DNA of 34,798 nucleotides from positions 1-34,798 of IMG/VR virus record IMGVR_UViG_3300047678_000064; one strand, 5' to 3'. This DNA is from a virus. Within the stretch, counting starts at the first letter, position 1. Each line of letters begins with the position of its first letter. The notes under the pieces are model-generated. The model saw only the letters and a list, made by a program, of their open reading frames with translations. It made no database searches and was not told the DNA's origin. Shown in pieces: positions 7,762 through 34,745 of the stretch. Made by a program: the position numbers and the translations under genes.

Positions 7762-10080
7762 TTATGTATTTTGTATTAGTGTATCAATTGTTTGTTCACT
7801 CACTGGTTCTACAATCTCCTCATTGAGAGTAAGTTTGTAGTTAGTGTAATCAATTCTAATCCTGTAATACTTAAATAAATCCACTAAAATGTTAATATAA
7901 TGCTCCTTACCCTCATTTGTAGAGTTGTCAGGCAATACTTCAAGAGTTGTTTCAATAAAAGGAAAAGTATCTAATAGTTCTTTTACTTTTTTATACTCTG
8001 TGTAAATTGTTTCATCAAACAGATTGTGTTCTTCTGAAATAGCAAGCATTGCTATATAAACATCTTCATCACCTATACTGTGATAGTTTTCTTCTCTGTA
8101 ATCAATTAACTTGATTAATTCTTTTTCTAGAGGTTTGCTTATCTTAGATAAGATGTGTCTCTTACGGAAAGTATCTTCATACTGTTTAACCAGCTTATGT
8201 ACTAGATAGCTAGTTACTAATCTCTTAAATGGTTTGTTCTTGCCTTCCATAAACTTTTCAATTGAGATAAAATTGTGAAAATCCAGTGTTTGTGCTACTT
8301 TATGCTCTCTATCAGAAAGAATATAATAACTGATCTTTTGACAATCAGAGATTGAATATAACTGATCACATAGAGATTCATGACTTGTCTTCCCATATAC
8401 ATGCAAACCTTTAGCTGATTGAATTTCTTCAACCTTTAATATATCTGAAACAAGTTTACTACTCTTACCATTCACATATCTTTGCAGCTCTGAAGTTTTT
8501 CTACAGTTAATCTCTCCTTGAAGTTTAACTCTTCTAGTTCCTGTTCCTGATGCAAATACTCTTTTCTTCTTTCTGGCATCTAACCAAGCTTGAGGAATTG
8601 TCATAGCATCTACATTTATAAAATGAGCTGTAAGTTCAGTAATAATAGATCTAAATTCTGTAATTCTATCTCTCCATGTGTCTTTAGGGTACTTTTTAAG
8701 ATCCAGCATGGTCATGTAATTATCATAAATGAAATTTCTATGCTTGTTTTTAAGACTGAATTCTTTTTCTTTCTTAACAAACAAAACAGGATTCCAATCC
8801 ATTGGAGGAAGCAATGATTTTACATAGGACTTTTTGTTACCAACAAACAGTTCATCATAGATGAATATCTTTTTACTTATATTCTCCATACTAAGAATTG
8901 TGTTAGAATATCCTTTAGAATTCTTAAACATACCTCTTGTGTACTCAATGTGAGTTTTGAACTCATAGAACAAATAGTCTTTGTGTCTGTACAATAACTG
9001 AAAGTCAGTTAGTACATACTTTTTGTACTGAGGTTTGTTGAATGTCTTTTTAGAGAATCCTAACAGCTTATTAGCATCCATAGTCTTTGGACCAATCACC
9101 ACATTACGAACCTGACTAGCATAGTAATTGAAGATCTCTTTGATATTTTTACAATCAATACTATTTTCATTGTATTTATCCATAAAATAGTCAGCAATAA
9201 GAGTTATCTTATCTAGAATGGTTTTTTTGGCCTGTGTAGTATAGATAAGCTGCTCTCTATTAGGAGTTGGATATAGTCCATCTGTAAGACTAAATCTTAA
9301 ACCAATAGGTAGATTTATCTCTTGAATTCCTAGTTTATTGAAATCTAAGGGATAGTAAACATTATCTAAACAAATGTGCATGTTACCATCTTCATTCATC
9401 TCAGAGATTTGGAAATGTTCTGCTCTGTGAATCTGGAATTCATTGGTAATAATAGCATTTTGAACATTTACATCGAAGTAAACACTCTCAAAATAAGCCA
9501 ATTGTCCTTTGATTTTATCTTTAAATGTGAATCTATCAATAAACTTAACAGGAACAATAACCTTAACTCCATTTCTTTCCTCTGTGGGAGTTTCATACAA
9601 TAGGTCAATTGTATTAACATCTTCTCCTTCATACATCATGTACTTGCGCTCTATACCATTCTTTCTACAAACAAAGTAGAAACTAGAGCTGTAAGCTAAA
9701 GGAGACTTAAAACCTAAACCCATCATTCCGATTTCAGTAGCACTATCTCTCTTGGTAGATTTTCCATACTTGGATATAATGTTCTCTACATCATCAGCAT
9801 CTAGACCAGTTCCAAAATCTTCAACAGAAAACTCATAGTTATTCTGAGCATTTACTTTCAATGATACAATAATTGCATCAGTAACTCCTGCTCTTCTATG
9901 ACTATCGAGTCCATTAGATGTACACTCTCTTACAGTTGATCCAATAGGATCTGAGTACAGGTTCTTGCTTAACATCTGCATGAGCACATGAGCACTCTCC
10001 ATATCTAAACTCATCCCTATACTAGCAGTAGATTGTCCTTCACCTAGTACCTTATTTAAAACTTGCTTTTCTTGAATCAT
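7762..10080 (-). CDS. rIIA: RIIA-like protein with GHKL (HSP90-type) ATPase domain
   Basis: 772 aa, like T4 rIIA (725 aa). The N-terminal GHKL domain is intact: N-box RECTSNGLDSH (51-61) with E52, N56 and D59; G1 box VEDFGTGLD (86-94); G2 box IGMMGLGFKSPLAYSSSF (117-134). SIGMSLDMESAHVLMQML before it is the usual RIIA start. The long C-terminal part is Lys-rich and unrecognised. ATP binding should drive conformational cycling of the RIIA-RIIB complex at the membrane. The stop is followed after 4 bases by rIIB. Its first 29 bases overlap the end of the upstream 136-aa gene. Confidence 0.9.
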   Translation of the reverse strand: MIQEKQVLNKVLGEGQSTASIGMSLDMESAHVLMQMLSKNLYSDPIGSTVRECTSNGLDSHRRAGVTDAIIVSLKVNAQNNYEFSVEDFGTGLDADDVENIISKYGKSTKRDSATEIGMMGLGFKSPLAYSSSFYFVCRKNGIERKYMMYEGEDVNTIDLLYETPTEERNGVKVIVPVKFIDRFTFKDKIKGQLAYFESVYFDVNVQNAIITNEFQIHRAEHFQISEMNEDGNMHICLDNVYYPLDFNKLGIQEINLPIGLRFSLTDGLYPTPNREQLIYTTQAKKTILDKITLIADYFMDKYNENSIDCKNIKEIFNYYASQVRNVVIGPKTMDANKLLGFSKKTFNKPQYKKYVLTDFQLLYRHKDYLFYEFKTHIEYTRGMFKNSKGYSNTILSMENISKKIFIYDELFVGNKKSYVKSLLPPMDWNPVLFVKKEKEFSLKNKHRNFIYDNYMTMLDLKKYPKDTWRDRITEFRSIITELTAHFINVDAMTIPQAWLDARKKKRVFASGTGTRRVKLQGEINCRKTSELQRYVNGKSSKLVSDILKVEEIQSAKGLHVYGKTSHESLCDQLYSISDCQKISYYILSDREHKVAQTLDFHNFISIEKFMEGKNKPFKRLVTSYLVHKLVKQYEDTFRKRHILSKISKPLEKELIKLIDYREENYHSIGDEDVYIAMLAISEEHNLFDETIYTEYKKVKELLDTFPFIETTLEVLPDNSTNEGKEHYINILVDLFKYYRIRIDYTNYKLTLNEEIVEPVSEQTIDTLIQNT

Positions 10081-11180: not shown

Positions 11181-11362
11181 TATTCTTCAGATTTAGGTTC
11201 TCTCTTTTTAGACTCTTCCATCATAGCTTCTGCTACATCAAAGGCTTCCTTTGCTATTACATCTGCTGTAGCGAAAATAGACATTCTCCCTATTATTCCA
11301 GGCAATGCTATACCTGCAAATAAATTTAATTTGTCATTGTAATCTTCTTCTGCTTCTGTCAT
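11180..11362 (-). CDS. Small phage protein, 60 aa (LFAGIALPG...ADVIAKEAFDVAEAMMEE type)
   Basis: 60 aa. Acidic, with the pattern LNLFAGIALPGIIG, then ADVIAKEAFDVAEAMMEESKKR. Small proteins with this FAGxAL...A..AY..ADAML.xR layout are widespread in phages of many hosts, usually close to replication or recombination genes, and have no known function. It ends in a TAATG overlap with the following gene and starts 11 bases after the UDG stop. Confidence 0.75.
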   Translation of the reverse strand: MTEAEEDYNDKLNLFAGIALPGIIGRMSIFATADVIAKEAFDVAEAMMEESKKREPKSEE

Positions 11363-11373
11363 GATTTTTAGTT

Positions 11374-12102
11374 TTAAAATGGTGTTTCAATATTAAGCCA
11401 TAAAATTGTTTCCTTGTTGCTATCCCAGACTATCTTGTTGATCTTGGTGAATGTATCTTTAGTATCCCAAGGTTTGCCTGTATAGGCTGCAGATGCTGGA
11501 TGAGCTAAGGTAAAAGTGGGATTTGTACCTGCTAATAATAACTCAAATCTAGATGCTTCCTTTCCTAAGAAGAGGACTGGTACTCCAGTTGTAGAGATGA
11601 CTTCTTTTAGCAAGAATTTAGTGAAGGGTTCCCATTTAGTCATATGACTGTTAGGAGTATCCCTGGCAACAGTAAGTGCAGCATTTAATAACAGCACTCC
11701 CTGTGAGCTCAAATAATTTAAATCATAATCATTAATATAATTTAAATTTAACCCATTGAACATTTCTGTTTCAATGCCATTATAGAAGTTCTGTAAGGTA
11801 GGCTGAACTCTAGCTGTTATGCTACAATCCATGGCTACACCTGAAGCTATAGGACTTCCATTCACATACTTAAAGTAGGGATCCTGACATACAATTACAC
11901 ATTTCAGATCATTAAAATCTGTTTCTTTGAATGCTCTGTAAGTGTGCATACTAGCAGGAGCTATTTGTACTCCTGACTGTGCTTGTCCCCTAAGAAAAGA
12001 ATAAATAGGATCAAAACCTGCTTCATCAAAGAAAGGTTTTATCCTACTGGCCCATGTCCCAAAAAGTGGTTCAAATTTCTTCCAATCAAGTTGGGTTTTC
12101 AT
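11374..12102 (-). CDS. ung: Uracil-DNA glycosylase, family 1 type
   Basis: 242 aa. Motif A is CQDPYFKY (72-79), keeping the catalytic Asp74 and Pro-Tyr but with Phe instead of the usual His after Tyr. The strand LLLNAALTVARDTPNSH (137-153) matches the UNG core. The leucine-loop motif AHPASAAY (200-207) keeps His201-Pro. It should flip out and excise uracil from DNA. Together with the dUTPase at 2.5 kb it indicates that uracil in phage DNA is avoided or used as a signal. Motif changes may alter substrate range. It overlaps the upstream 59-aa gene by 17 bases. Confidence 0.9.
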   Translation of the reverse strand: MKTQLDWKKFEPLFGTWASRIKPFFDEAGFDPIYSFLRGQAQSGVQIAPASMHTYRAFKETDFNDLKCVIVCQDPYFKYVNGSPIASGVAMDCSITARVQPTLQNFYNGIETEMFNGLNLNYINDYDLNYLSSQGVLLLNAALTVARDTPNSHMTKWEPFTKFLLKEVISTTGVPVLFLGKEASRFELLLAGTNPTFTLAHPASAAYTGKPWDTKDTFTKINKIVWDSNKETILWLNIETPF

Positions 12103-23367: not shown

Positions 23368-25401
23368 TTATTTTGCACTTCCCCAAGAATCATTGTAATG
23401 AGCATCTGCCTTAATAGTAAGGTTTGTTAAGTAATGATTACCTGCTGTAACCATAAATTCTCCAAGCTTAGGTGTTATCTCTTCAGCCATGTCTTCTGGA
23501 ACTTCTAAGACTATCTCATCATGTATAGAATTACAAAGAAGTACTTTCCATTGATAATTTTTCTCAATAATCCAATCAAACAAAAGAACTGTTGCAAGTT
23601 TTAATTGGTGTGCAGCGCGGGCTTGTACAGGATTATTCAGACAAAGTCTCAAGTATTCTGATCTTAATTTGAAATATTTGGATACAAAGACTTTTTTCTC
23701 ATTATAAAGCTCCACGCTTTTTGGAAATTGGTAAGTATACTCCCTGCCTTTATCATATTCTTCAAATTTCTTCTTAAAATCAGTTTTTCCAATCTTGTAC
23801 TGAGTCCACTCATCTCTGGAAATAGAGTCAACTTTACTTTTCAGTGTAACAAAATCTTCATAGAAAGGAAGTCTTAACTTCCAGCCATCTACAGATTCTA
23901 TATATCCTGTCTTGATAGAAGCTTGAAATACTCTATCTCCCCAAGCATAAAGACCAGAGTGTAAATTCTTAAAACCATCCTCAATTTCCTGAGCCCTTTT
24001 AAGTGGAATACCTTCATTCATGTGAATAGTAAATGCATTCCCGCCATAGGACATAGCAAATCTTGGTGCCTTAGAAGCATTTCTCTTATCCTTGTGCTTC
24101 GCAACAATTTCCTCATCTGATAGATGTTCTATCTCTGGGAATAACACTCTCGCTAATAAACAGTGCAAGTCAGCACCTTCGACCACAGATTTGGTCATAG
24201 CTTCATCTCCAGACAAGTCAGCAACTATTACAGTTTCCTGGCCACTGTAGTCACAAACTATCATTACATTGCCCTCATTGGCTTTGAAACAATACCTTGT
24301 GGTTTTATCAGCAGGAAAATTAAGGAAGTTAATATTCCCTCTCCTGGTTGATAATCTCGCAGTATCTACCATAGGATTGAAATTAGTGTATATACGCTCA
24401 TTTTCAATTCTATTATAAATACTCTCGCCAAATGTTGTTACTCTATGGTTAGCTACTTGATACTTTAACCACATTTCAACAAACTCATGCTTAGATTTAC
24501 TAATTACATTCTCATTGATACTGTCTTTACCATCTTTATCAATAGTGGGAATACCAAATGCATTAAAGACTTGTAACATCTGTTTTGCAGAGTTTACAGA
24601 TACATTCACTTTTTTCATTCCTTCTTCAAATAAATCCAGCTGATCATCAGCATATTTGGGAAGATTATTATGAATGTATTCTTCTATAGTCTGTTTCCAT
24701 TTAAAGGAATTACTAATATCTTCTTCCATTTTAGCAGACCACTTCTCACTAGATATAGGCAGTCCGCATTGCTCCATATAGGCTAATGCTTTGACATATC
24801 TATAATGAAGTTTGTAGGTTTCAATGGACCCCCTATCAATGAGTTTGCCAACAAGTACACTATGTAGAGTAAGGAGCTTATCCACATCATTAAAAGAATA
24901 AATAATAGTACTAGCTTGGCTAAGCTTAACCAAGTGAATGTTCTTTTGCTCTGTTTTGTCATAAGTAATGTCTAATTCACGTTTCATTACATGCCCAAAA
25001 TCATGTCTTTCTCTTGGGTCTCCATTATGGAGTATCTTGCTAGCGAGCATTGTGTCCCGCACCTCTCTAGGCCAGAAATCATACTTATAAAAAAAGCCTA
25101 AATCAAATAAAATGTTATGCCCTACAAGCACCTTTCCATCAATATATGGTATTAAATCCTGAAACACATAATTGTCATCATACATGTGTATAATGTAGTT
25201 ATTCTCTCCTGTGCCTATCTGGACACAAAATATTTCACAATTTCTAGCTTCTAGACCAGTAGTCTCTGTATCTATAGCTATTGCTGGAAATCTGTCTAAT
25301 TTCATGTCTTCTAAACCACAAAATCCTATCTGACCAGCTAATATCTGATCAGAAAGGATTTTTGTAAAGAATAATGGATTTTTGGTGATAATGTAGTTCA
25401 T
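23368..25401 (-). CDS. polA: DNA polymerase, family A, with 3'-5' exonuclease
   Basis: 677 aa. The proofreading exonuclease is at the N-terminus: AIDTETTGLE (41-50, D44/E46), GHNILFDLG (94-102, D100) and YSFNDVD (168-174). Polymerase motif A is VCDYSGQET (382-390, D384), motif B is RNASKAPRFAMSYGG (440-454) and motif C is NSIHDEIVLEV (624-634, D628). There is no 5' nuclease domain, as in T7 gp5. This is the replicative polymerase of the phage. Motif A reads DYSGQE rather than DYSQIE, a one-residue shift in spacing. The HNH gene follows 56 bases later. Confidence 0.97.
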   Translation of the reverse strand: MNYIITKNPLFFTKILSDQILAGQIGFCGLEDMKLDRFPAIAIDTETTGLEARNCEIFCVQIGTGENNYIIHMYDDNYVFQDLIPYIDGKVLVGHNILFDLGFFYKYDFWPREVRDTMLASKILHNGDPRERHDFGHVMKRELDITYDKTEQKNIHLVKLSQASTIIYSFNDVDKLLTLHSVLVGKLIDRGSIETYKLHYRYVKALAYMEQCGLPISSEKWSAKMEEDISNSFKWKQTIEEYIHNNLPKYADDQLDLFEEGMKKVNVSVNSAKQMLQVFNAFGIPTIDKDGKDSINENVISKSKHEFVEMWLKYQVANHRVTTFGESIYNRIENERIYTNFNPMVDTARLSTRRGNINFLNFPADKTTRYCFKANEGNVMIVCDYSGQETVIVADLSGDEAMTKSVVEGADLHCLLARVLFPEIEHLSDEEIVAKHKDKRNASKAPRFAMSYGGNAFTIHMNEGIPLKRAQEIEDGFKNLHSGLYAWGDRVFQASIKTGYIESVDGWKLRLPFYEDFVTLKSKVDSISRDEWTQYKIGKTDFKKKFEEYDKGREYTYQFPKSVELYNEKKVFVSKYFKLRSEYLRLCLNNPVQARAAHQLKLATVLLFDWIIEKNYQWKVLLCNSIHDEIVLEVPEDMAEEITPKLGEFMVTAGNHYLTNLTIKADAHYNDSWGSAK

Positions 25402-27486: not shown

Positions 27487-27690
27487 CTAAAACTCAGCTT
27501 TTAGAAAAGTATCAAGTTGATCACGCAATTCTTCTGCTTTCTTTTTAGTAAGGAACAGATCAAAATAATCATTAGTCTCTCCTTCTTTAAAAACAGTAAT
27601 CATAATATCTGTATTAGTTTTCTTTGTTCCAATACAATCTTTGTAAAAAGAAACTCTTTCTACAATACCTTCATTGTTTTCTAGTGTCAT
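27487..27690 (-). CDS. Hypothetical protein, 67 aa
   Basis: 67 aa, alpha/beta: two strands (IVERVSFYKD, DIMITVFKEG) and a C-terminal helix (TKKKAEELRDQLDTFLKAEF). The first gene after tRNA-like element 27713-27791; its leader is ACAAACAACAAAAATTAAT, a CA-rich sequence also seen before 26193. Not recognised. Confidence 0.65.
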   Translation of the reverse strand: MTLENNEGIVERVSFYKDCIGTKKTNTDIMITVFKEGETNDYFDLFLTKKKAEELRDQLDTFLKAEF

Positions 27691-27712: not shown

Positions 27713-27791
27713 TTGGGGAAGCAGGGATCGAACCTGCGCTAGAAACCATTTTACTGGATGACAAACCAACCTGCCATTATACTCTTCCCCT
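27713..27791 (-). tRNA. Unusual tRNA or tRNA-like gene (anticodon uncertain, perhaps GUC)
   Basis: The T-arm is perfect: GCAGG, TTCGATC, CCTGC (27737-27721). The acceptor 3' strand TTCCCCA (27720-27714) pairs with AGGGGAA (27791-27785) except at the first pair, and base 73 is A. A stem GTTGG/CCAGT (27767-27763, 27757-27753... read on the minus strand) frames an 8-base loop TTTGTCAT containing GUC; standard loops have 7 bases. The D region (14 bases) shows no proper D-stem and base 8 is G, not U. The region between this stem and the T-arm is 15 bases. It may be a degenerate, specialised or frameshift-type tRNA. No CCA is encoded. Confidence 0.5.
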
Positions 27792-33138: not shown

Positions 33139-34023
33139 TTAGTTAATATCTTTGTAGAAACCTTTGGAAACATCTTCTCCAGCTGCTACTTTACTAGAGT
33201 AAGAGGAGCGAGAAACACTGTTAGTCATGAAAGCACTTTCCATGCCTCTTTCAGTATTGTCATGAACAAGAGTATTTGAGTCGTGGAACTTAAGATTTTT
33301 TTGGGCATATTTCACATCTTCAACAGTTCCAATGAAGGTGAATGTCCATCCCAGAGAGCCTAATTCTTCAATTAGTTTGGCAATTTTAGCAGCACCGTAT
33401 CTTCGAGATGAGTTCTCCTGGCCATCAGTATAGATGTTGACTAACACTACATCAGCATCTTTCTTAACAGGGGAAACTTTAGCTATAGAATCACCAATAG
33501 CATCATATAATGCAGTGGATCCTCTAGTAACTCCTCGATACTCACTAACTACTGTTAATGGATCTGTGGTGTGTAGGAAGCGAATGTCATCTGAGAAATC
33601 ACAGAGAGTGTAGGTATAAGTGACATGATTTTTGTCTTCTTTGAGCTCTTTTATACCTCTGTTGATTCCCATGTATGCAGCCTTAGCTTTACCACCACTC
33701 ATTGAACCACTATTATCCAGTACGTCTACTACGTGGATAACTTTTGCTGCAGTTGATGCAACAGTTTTGGTTTTAGTTTTAGTGACCACTGTAGTTTTGG
33801 TCACTGTAACCTTGTTACGTTTCTTGGGAGCTTTAGATGCCGTCTTAGCTTGTGCTCCTTTGGAATAGGGAAAGTTTCCTAATCCTTGTGCAATAAGATC
33901 ATCTAAATGGGCGATGAAATCTTTTGCACTGTTGAACCCTTCAGCGAGCGCTTTAGGTTCTCTAGCAACTTTGTTGTACTGTTTGATGCTTTTCAACATC
34001 TCTGAATTTGTTTTTGTGCTCAT
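33139..34023 (-). CDS. von Willebrand factor A (VWA) domain protein
   Basis: 294 aa. An N-terminal helical part is followed by a Lys/Thr/Val-rich linker (about 66-90, with KTKTK repeats), then the VWA domain: VVDVLDNSGSMSGGK (98-112) gives the DxSxS MIDAS motif, GSTALYDAIG (168-177) gives the metal-binding Thr170, and IYTDGQENSS (197-206) gives the Asp200-Gly. It should bind a divalent metal and a protein ligand. VWA proteins often act with AAA+ ATPases; one is encoded 2 kb downstream. Confidence 0.92.
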   Translation of the reverse strand: MSTKTNSEMLKSIKQYNKVAREPKALAEGFNSAKDFIAHLDDLIAQGLGNFPYSKGAQAKTASKAPKKRNKVTVTKTTVVTKTKTKTVASTAAKVIHVVDVLDNSGSMSGGKAKAAYMGINRGIKELKEDKNHVTYTYTLCDFSDDIRFLHTTDPLTVVSEYRGVTRGSTALYDAIGDSIAKVSPVKKDADVVLVNIYTDGQENSSRRYGAAKIAKLIEELGSLGWTFTFIGTVEDVKYAQKNLKFHDSNTLVHDNTERGMESAFMTNSVSRSSYSSKVAAGEDVSKGFYKDIN

Positions 34024-34043: not shown

Positions 34044-34325
34044 TTACTTATTCTTAAACATATTCTCCATAAACTTTGCCATTCTGAGAGAATTGGCAAG
34101 GTCTTCACTCTTTTCTAAAGCTTCTGCTAGACCTTTAGCTATTAATACACTTGTTAAATAAACAACTTCATTGTAGCTAAAGTTCTTAACTATATGCTCA
34201 AAGAGTTCTTCCACAGTATCTGGCCCATTATCATCAATGATAACTACCATTGCTTTTACGCATTTTTCTTGTATGTCAGGCATATCAAGAGAAGCGTATG
34301 CTTCTTTAGTTTTCTGGCTTGCCAT
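34044..34325 (-). CDS. Hypothetical helical protein, 93 aa, paralogue of the upstream gene
   Basis: 93 aa from ATG 34325; an ATG at 34343 in the same frame would add 6 residues and cannot be excluded. Mostly helical: IQEKCVKAMVVIIDDNGPD, then FSYNEVVYLTSVLIAKGLAE, then LANSLRMAKFMENMF. The order and hydrophobic pattern match the 95-aa product of the upstream gene (FTREEMAYVVCVHAASRVLA), so these are tandem diverged copies. Function unknown. Confidence 0.7.
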   Translation of the reverse strand: MASQKTKEAYASLDMPDIQEKCVKAMVVIIDDNGPDTVEELFEHIVKNFSYNEVVYLTSVLIAKGLAEALEKSEDLANSLRMAKFMENMFKNK

Positions 34326-34593
34326 CTTTTGAGTCTTCAGCATTTTTCAAAACAGCTACTAATTTCTCTAATGCAGGATTAGCTTCTAAAACAGCCAATA
34401 CTCTGCTTGCAGCATGAACACATACTACATAAGCCATTTCTTCTCTAGTAAATGTGTCTAAAACATGCGTCATATCCCCTTCTGGATCTTCTTTATCTGC
34501 ATTTTTGGCCATATGCAGCATAAATATTGCCATTTTCTCACTTACTTTTTCTTGATCCACTCCTTTTATTTTGTGGAATTCATGTTCACCCAT
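34306..34593 (-). CDS. Hypothetical helical protein, 95 aa
   Basis: 95 aa from ATG 34593, with the leader TTTAAACAACAATCAT. The frame is also open upstream to 34686, but that part is the tRNA-like gene, so the 34593 start is preferred. Helices: EKVSEKMAIFMLHMAKNAD, FTREEMAYVVCVHAASRVLAV, and a short acidic C-terminus. It is a paralogue of the next gene. The first protein gene after the tRNA-like element. Confidence 0.7.
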   Translation of the reverse strand: MGEHEFHKIKGVDQEKVSEKMAIFMLHMAKNADKEDPEGDMTHVLDTFTREEMAYVVCVHAASRVLAVLEANPALEKLVAVLKNAEDSKDGKPEN

Positions 34594-34612: not shown

Positions 34613-34745
34613 AGAAGGAGGAAGCAGGAATCGAACCTGCATTTACCATTTGGACTGTCTGGTAATCCTATCATCTTTCCTGGCATCTCTCTGTCCTGAG
34701 TAGACTTATCCAGATGATAGAGTGTCTACCATTCACCATCCCCCC
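34613..34745 (-). tRNA. tRNA-like gene with an insertion (Leu-like 5' half), or intron-containing tRNA
   Basis: The T-arm GCAGG, TTCGATT, CCTGC (34640-34624) is perfect and continues to TTCCTCC (34623-34617). The matching 5' acceptor strand GGGGGGA (34745-34739, two G-U pairs) is 100 bases upstream, followed by T8-G9, D-stem GTG/CAC and D-loop AATGGTAGA with A14, G18-G19 and A21, a Leu-like D-arm. Anticodon-stem strands CTATC (34720-34716) and GATAG (34672-34668) pair, but 43 bases instead of 7 lie between them. A 6-bp stem TTACCA/TGGTAA before the T-arm resembles a long variable arm. Alternative short reading from about 34681 has a poor acceptor. Confidence 0.6.

Follow-up and report, generated by a model that had tools for sequence, protein, structure and literature searches.

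The DNA analyzed here (the window; 34,798 nucleotides, positions 1 to 34,798 of IMG/VR virus record IMGVR_UViG_3300047678_000064) is a 34.8-kb virus contig that carries DNA polymerase, RIIA/B-like, UvsX-like, PhoH, and primase/helicase genes. The best matches of the polymerase are mostly to Crassvirales, at about 30% identity, and these matches, together with the gene content, point to a crAss-like phage. Near the end of the window, on the strand of the early/replication genes, is an element that had originally been described as a tRNA-like gene split by an insertion in its anticodon loop. The element lies between co-directional genes. Only 53 bases of the window lie upstream of it, and the preceding gene is therefore outside the window, so that the intercistronic position is taken from three other records (G006, G001, and G028, introduced below). 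The features of the locus are as follows.

34616-34745, minus strand: the whole tRNA-like element (family A), ~130 nt; 138 bits with CM R1, homologs in G006, G026, G027, and G028, and covariation
34739-34745, minus strand: 5′ strand of the acceptor stem, GGGGGGA, partner of 34617-34623; seven of seven pairs changed on both sides across homologs
34617-34623, minus strand: 3′ strand of the acceptor stem, TTCCTCC, from sequence and covariation; no CCA is encoded, and the next base (34616) is T
34722-34736, minus strand: D arm, GTG-AATGGTAGA-CAC, of the Leu type with GG in the loop, from homolog alignment
34713-34720, minus strand: 5′ strand of the extended "anticodon" stem, CTATCATC; eight of eight pairs with 34668-34675 changed on both sides
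34668-34675, minus strand: 3′ strand of the extended "anticodon" stem, GATGATAG, from covariation
34685-34705, minus strand: inner hairpin, GTCT-A-CTC[AGGACA]GAG-AGAT, with a bulged A and a conserved apical loop (AGGAC[A/C] in five of five); seven of seven pairs changed on both sides
34692-34697, minus strand: apical loop of the inner hairpin, AGGACA; GGAC is invariant in five homologs and is a candidate partner for GTCC in the variable-arm loop
34643-34665, minus strand: variable arm, TTACCA-GACAGTCCAAA-TGGTAA, 6 bp with an 11-nt loop; five of six pairs changed on both sides, loop the same in five of five (search bait for three)
34624-34640, minus strand: T arm, GCAGG-TTCGATT-CCTGC; four of five pairs changed on both sides
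34306-34593, minus strand: downstream gene (95 aa), which begins with an ATG 23 nt downstream of the element; homologs of this gene also follow a tRNA-like in G006, G001, and G013
27715-27790, minus strand: second tRNA-like (site B), acceptor GGGGAA/TTCCCC and T arm GCAGG-TTCGATC-CCTGC, 24 nt before the ATG of ORF 27487-27690

Read on the minus strand from 34745 to 34617, the element consists of the 5′ acceptor strand, TG, the D arm, T, CTATCATC, TGGATAA, the inner hairpin, GCCAGGAAA, GATGATAG, GA, the variable arm, AT, the T arm, and the 3′ acceptor strand. Two of the seven acceptor pairs are G-U, and a GGA follows the inner hairpin in the 3′ internal loop. As originally described, a 7-bp acceptor stem, a Leu-like D arm, and a perfect T arm are all present on the minus strand, and CTATC and GATAG are 43 nt apart and lengthened by ATC and GAT. 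What had been taken for an insert in the anticodon loop is an extended arm of 8–9 bp plus the inner hairpin with its bulged A and AGGAC[A/C] loop. This hairpin had been overlooked, as had the variable arm and the second tRNA-like at 27715-27790. The top half is that of a tRNA-Leu (7-bp acceptor, D arm, 5-bp T arm, and TTCRANN loop), with the exception of G006, whose T loop is 6 nt long and non-canonical (ATCGGA). The acceptor and T stems directly adjoin one another and covary, thus forming the stacked helix that an RNase P substrate requires.

Family A has five distinct members, all of them metagenomic: that of the window (G000) and those of G006, G026, G027, and G028. G006 (IMGVR_UViG_3300049491_000418, 106.8 kb), which was reached by a search with neighboring genes, has a polymerase 78% identical to that of the window and a homologous element at the same place. 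The others came from pattern scans on two shared loops: G026 (IMGVR_UViG_3300005758_000180), a more distant crAss-like phage; G027 (IMGVR_UViG_3300025154_000005); and G028, one of a near-identical pair with G029 (IMGVR_UViG_3300033571_002405 and 3300042559_000426). G027 and G028 have other types of DNA polymerase or primase, and the GC content of the phages ranges from 23% (G026) to 44% (G028). All members are 128–133 nt long and share the same cloverleaf. With CM R1 the five score 123–140 bits; the E-values of R1 come from a short calibration, and the members (at least 123 bits) are separated by a wide gap from everything else (at most 53 bits).

In a model-fitted alignment of the five sequences, two-sided changes were present in 32 of 36 pairs, and 98.9% of cells were paired, as compared with 15.2 pairs and 67% for shuffled controls and at most 11 pairs and 46% for slid structures. 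Because this alignment had been fitted to the structure, RNAalifold was also run on a plain MAFFT alignment made without reference to structure, and the fold that it returned was the same; 31 of its 39 pairs had changed on both sides. When single sequences were folded, the cloverleaf was the minimum or within 0.5 kcal/mol of it in four members; in G027 an alternative fold was better by 5.6 kcal/mol. A T arm plus an acceptor is by itself weak evidence, because Markov-shuffled windows contained up to three such matches (mean 0.5). The element is beyond chance because four independent homologs share its compensated fold. The tRNA-like fold is real, and it has been kept by compensatory change in quite different phages.

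Further searches brought no additional members. BLASTN with the element and three homologs against 50,697 phage records returned nothing, or T-arm stretches of at most 28 nt. The last viral pattern scan yielded only chance matches in coding sequence, and a scan of genome contigs, with a pattern that required flanks absent from some members, yielded three matches, all due to chance. Public phage isolates were covered by BLASTN, and one of them, Cellulophaga phage phi14:2, was also searched with the model and had no such element. A search of one literature library found no paper on such RNAs. The gene upstream of the G026 element (c22034-21549) encodes an HNH homing-type endonuclease (phrog_59, HNH_3), which might have aided the mobility of the element.

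Two loops stand out in the alignment. The 11-nt loop of the variable arm, GACAGTCCAAA, is the same in all five members; it served as bait for G026, G027, and G028, and the unbiased test is the comparison of the window with G006, in which 11 of 11 positions are identical on stems that differ. The apical loop AGGACA, which was not bait for G027 and G028, is kept at six of six and five of six positions, respectively, the single change (AGGACC in G028) being outside GGAC. The GGAC of the inner hairpin is complementary to the GTCC of the variable-arm loop, and a loop–loop kiss between them is plausible, with the proviso that chance alone would make a 6-nt loop and an 11-nt loop complementary over four bases in about one case in ten (our rough estimate). 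The pairing is without covariation because both loops are invariant.

The genomic setting of the element was compared among relatives. At the place before homologs of the downstream gene (site A), every relative checked has a tRNA-like: a family A element in the window and G006, a 39-nt acceptor/T-arm minihelix (GGGAA-AAATGGTTAAT-GCAAG-TTCGATT-CTTGC-A-TTCCC) in G001, and a canonical tRNA-Ile(GAT) in G013. G023 has a 64-nt form, probably at site A, in front of a gene with a weak match, and a 119-nt odd tRNA-like in G007 precedes a vWA gene, the neighbor of the site A gene. In the window a von Willebrand factor A-like phage protein (phrog_7371) is encoded at 33139-34023 on the minus strand, and its gene is near the element in several relatives. 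At site B, behind a gene of ~400 aa that is 80%–87% identical among them, there is a tRNA-like in each of the window, G006, and G013; the distance from it to the next ATG is exactly 24 nt in all three, and the following genes are unrelated. The site B sequence of the window, GTATAATGGC...GTCATCC.GTAAA..GGTTTCTA, recurs in G013 (c63983-63908) and partly in G015 (c4902-4823), with stems that are changed yet complementary; ARAGORN made no call on the window copy. Nor did ARAGORN find a canonical tRNA in 10 of 13 clade contigs examined.

In the clade of the window, 11 of 14 tRNA-likes are followed after 21–38 nt by the ATG of a co-directional ORF, as compared with 28% of random places that fall within 45 nt of an ATG. 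We regard this spacing as supportive only, since compact genomes favor any intergenic feature near an ATG. Family A elements end 16–32 nt before an ATG in the window, G006, and G028. Upstream, a stop codon lies 5–8 nt before several elements (5 nt in G006 and G001), which leaves little room for separate promoters. Outside the clade, a canonical tRNA-Arg(TCT) in G029 (+23785-23857) has the same spacing as the tRNA-likes: the preceding stop codon is 9 nt upstream of it, and the following ATG is 23 nt downstream.

With moderate confidence, we favor the view that the element is an intercistronic tRNA-like RNA that would be excised from phage mRNA by the host nucleases that mature tRNAs. The part that is constant across the tRNA-like forms is the acceptor/T-arm branch, which is the part read by bacterial RNase P. 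Cotranscription with both neighbors is likely, given spacers of 5 nt before and leaders of ~24 nt after many elements. These two considerations together favor the processing of a polycistronic transcript. RNase P is known to cut phage M3 RNA, phage C4 RNA, and polycistronic mRNAs (PMC11143913). The top half (acceptor, T arm, and D arm) would be maintained as a nuclease substrate, RNase P presumably cutting just 5′ of the acceptor stem and RNase Z (the tRNA 3′ nuclease) or exonucleases acting 3′ of it. Such cuts would part the upstream from the downstream message and set the 5′ end of the downstream mRNA, leaving the next gene with a short, A/U-rich leader (23 nt in the window and ~24 nt for many elements), and they would release an RNA of ~130 nt that is probably stable. 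The anticodon arm of this RNA, an 8–9-bp helix with a folded-back inner hairpin, would be non-decoding, and pairing of GGAC with GTCC may lock the lower half into a compact body. Punctuation of this kind is not universal: the G026 and G027 elements are far from both the next ATG (177 and 69 nt, respectively) and the last stop codon (342–525 nt). Also, two invariant loops would be unexpected if the top half were all that mattered. The conserved loops suggest an additional function, and the retention of the lower half of family A in distant phages calls for something beyond punctuation, either compact folding for stability or a function in trans.

How does excision from mRNA compare with other readings of the locus? 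The original prediction had offered three options: a small unusual intron, a decaying gene, or a processed tRNA-like RNA. A tRNA-Leu gene with a small spliced intron would account for the canonical top half, the Leu-type D arm, and an insert in the anticodon arm, but the positions of the would-be anticodon loop are taken up by one continuous, covarying helix of 8–9 bp. This helix has no 3-nt bulges in the five sequences, and hence no bulge-helix-bulge. Neither a U33 nor an anticodon is common to the five homologs, and no RtcB gene was found in the records. The insert of ~40 nt is, as had been pointed out, too short for a usual group I intron, whose P3-P8 core usually takes at least ~200 nt, and Rfam gave no group I match either at gathering or at E-values up to 5. 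ARAGORN made no tRNA call at the element in its default mode; with introns allowed, as had been proposed, it gave a Trp(CCA) interrupted by an intron of 59 nt, an implausible call that fails on comparison with the homologs. An intron is thus highly improbable. We attach as little credence to a decaying tRNA or to an attP that is a copy of a host tRNA at its 3′ end. Decayed tRNAs are indeed present in phages, and the 3′ ends of tRNAs are used as att sites, but compensatory change runs throughout the element, its stems being kept by paired changes in five phages, and both halves are kept rather than the 3′ end alone. A tyrosine integrase was absent from nine of these records (the control was positive in 14 of 14 genomes). 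A tRNA pseudogene was likewise rejected, with 98.9% of cells paired despite two-sided change in 32 of 36 pairs. The option that survives, given a compensated fold in five phages, is a tRNA-like RNA that is presumably processed.

Other identities were considered and rejected. A functional tRNA-Leu would have a 5-bp/7-nt anticodon arm with U33 and an anticodon, in place of which the element has its covarying helix, and the conserved Leu discriminator A73 is lacking, the base after the acceptor being T, A, A, T, and T in the window, G006, G026, G027, and G028, respectively. LeuRS does not read the anticodon; leucylation without an anticodon is not favored, however, because the discriminator base varies. 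The Leu character originally proposed holds for the D arm and the long variable arm; an anticodon for Leu finds no support, none being common to the homologs. For tmRNA there was neither a gathering match nor an ARAGORN call, only a similarity in the T arm (E 0.24–0.9), and Rfam 15 had no match in the window at curated thresholds. Homology to T4 species 1 and 2 RNAs was dismissed, as species 1 reaches 15.6 bits against the model, in the range of ordinary tRNAs. On these sequence comparisons, the element is a representative of a so-far-unnamed family of ~130-nt tRNA-like RNAs and is neither a broken nor an intron-split tRNA.

Two readings give the element a regulatory role. It could be a cis-acting leader, riboswitch-like or controlling translation of the downstream gene, as might be expected of an element that ends 16–32 nt before an ATG in the window, G006, and G028. 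However, the genes that follow the element, although homologous in the window/G006 pair, are mutually unrelated among the window, G026, G027, and G028, which argues against a gene-specific riboswitch; the gap is 69–177 nt in G027 and G026, and a canonical tRNA-Ile or a minihelix replaces the element in relatives. We consider such a leader very unlikely. Alternatively, the released RNA could act in trans as a tRNA mimic that binds a host factor (the ribosome, a synthetase, a tRNA-modifying enzyme, or a tRNA-targeting defense nuclease) through its tRNA-like surface and loop-locked lower half, the intergenic place being only its site of expression. Consistent with a mimic, the two loops are invariant while the stems turn over, and members of the family are found beside unrelated genes in phages that differ clearly from one another (GC 23% to 44%). 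On the other hand, neither a discriminator (T, A, A, T, T) nor an anticodon is conserved that a synthetase or anticodon nuclease could recognize, no interaction partner can be named, and the substitution of a minihelix or an ordinary tRNA in close relatives makes the lower half dispensable at site A. We therefore hold a mimic to be rather unlikely. A broader proposal, to which we give only tentative credit, is that of a new class of regulatory RNA: a non-decoding mimic of tRNA-Leu with a kiss-locked lower half, made from phage mRNAs by tRNA-type processing, acting in trans on the translation or tRNA machinery of the host, and spread over different Bacteroidota phages.

The element can be compared with several known RNAs. 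Like a canonical class II tRNA-Leu, it has a 7-bp acceptor, a Leu-type D arm with GG, a long variable arm, and a T arm; unlike it, the element has no 5-bp/7-nt anticodon arm or anticodon, is 130 rather than ~87 nt long, and has an 11-nt invariant variable loop and a discriminator that is not conserved. An ordinary T4 tRNA-Leu scores 35 bits with the model. The T4 small stable RNAs C and D (species 1 and 2) are stable RNAs of similar size that are also encoded by a phage, and species 1 has a tRNA-like T arm with a long arm beside it, as does the element, but its fold differs and it is located in a tRNA cluster. To our knowledge, the phage RNAs known as RNase P substrates do not include a conserved cloverleaf of the tRNA-Leu type with a loop–loop kiss. 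The likeness to M3 RNA, C4 antisense RNA, and RNase P-cut polycistronic mRNAs would lie in a phage RNA serving as a site for RNase P (PMC11143913). Metagenomes also contain unusual tRNA architectures, such as allo-tRNAs and other non-canonical tRNAs of bacteria, some of which are not aminoacylated in vitro; these vary the acceptor/T branch (8/4 and 9/3) and retain the anticodon arm (PMC7609411), whereas the branch of the element is 7/5 and its anticodon arm is replaced. By analogy, the element would work like tRNA punctuation, and it belongs to no named RNA family. In mitochondrial transcripts, tRNAs or tRNA-like units between cistrons set the ends of mRNAs; the element was likened to these, with the differences that here the sites are few, partly non-decoding, and only presumed to be cleaved.

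Family A RNAs are missed by standard tRNA finders, and their fold is strongly supported for the five sequences compared here. If the processing model is correct, tRNA-like units serve crAss-like phages as punctuation between genes, in the way that tRNAs serve mitochondria, and new folds can then evolve freely in the anticodon half. A released RNA that acts in trans would be a natural mimic of tRNA with the host as its target.

Finally, we note that other odd tRNA-likes occur in these phages. Elements of 125–129 nt resembling tRNA-Leu in G019 (c64410-64286) and G020 (c21270-21146), G018 (c68628-68503), and G009 (c8122-7994) have the anticodon arm replaced by other, differing folded inserts, that of G018 seeming to be pseudoknotted, and score 34–53 bits with R1. 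A third type, in G023 (+8340-8408) and G008 (c21817-21748), has wholly different acceptor and T stems in its two copies, which nevertheless share an identical GCGCTCTTAATTGAGAAAT in an anticodon arm that is reduced. G027 has two more close to its family A element (c31680-31575 and c29126-29052), one with ~36 extra nt between the D and anticodon arms and the other with a loop of 6 nt, AAAAAT. In G003, a separate phage record of 131 kb, there are two tandem tRNA-likes (~+11250-11560) in which 79–108 nt separate the acceptor from the T arm.
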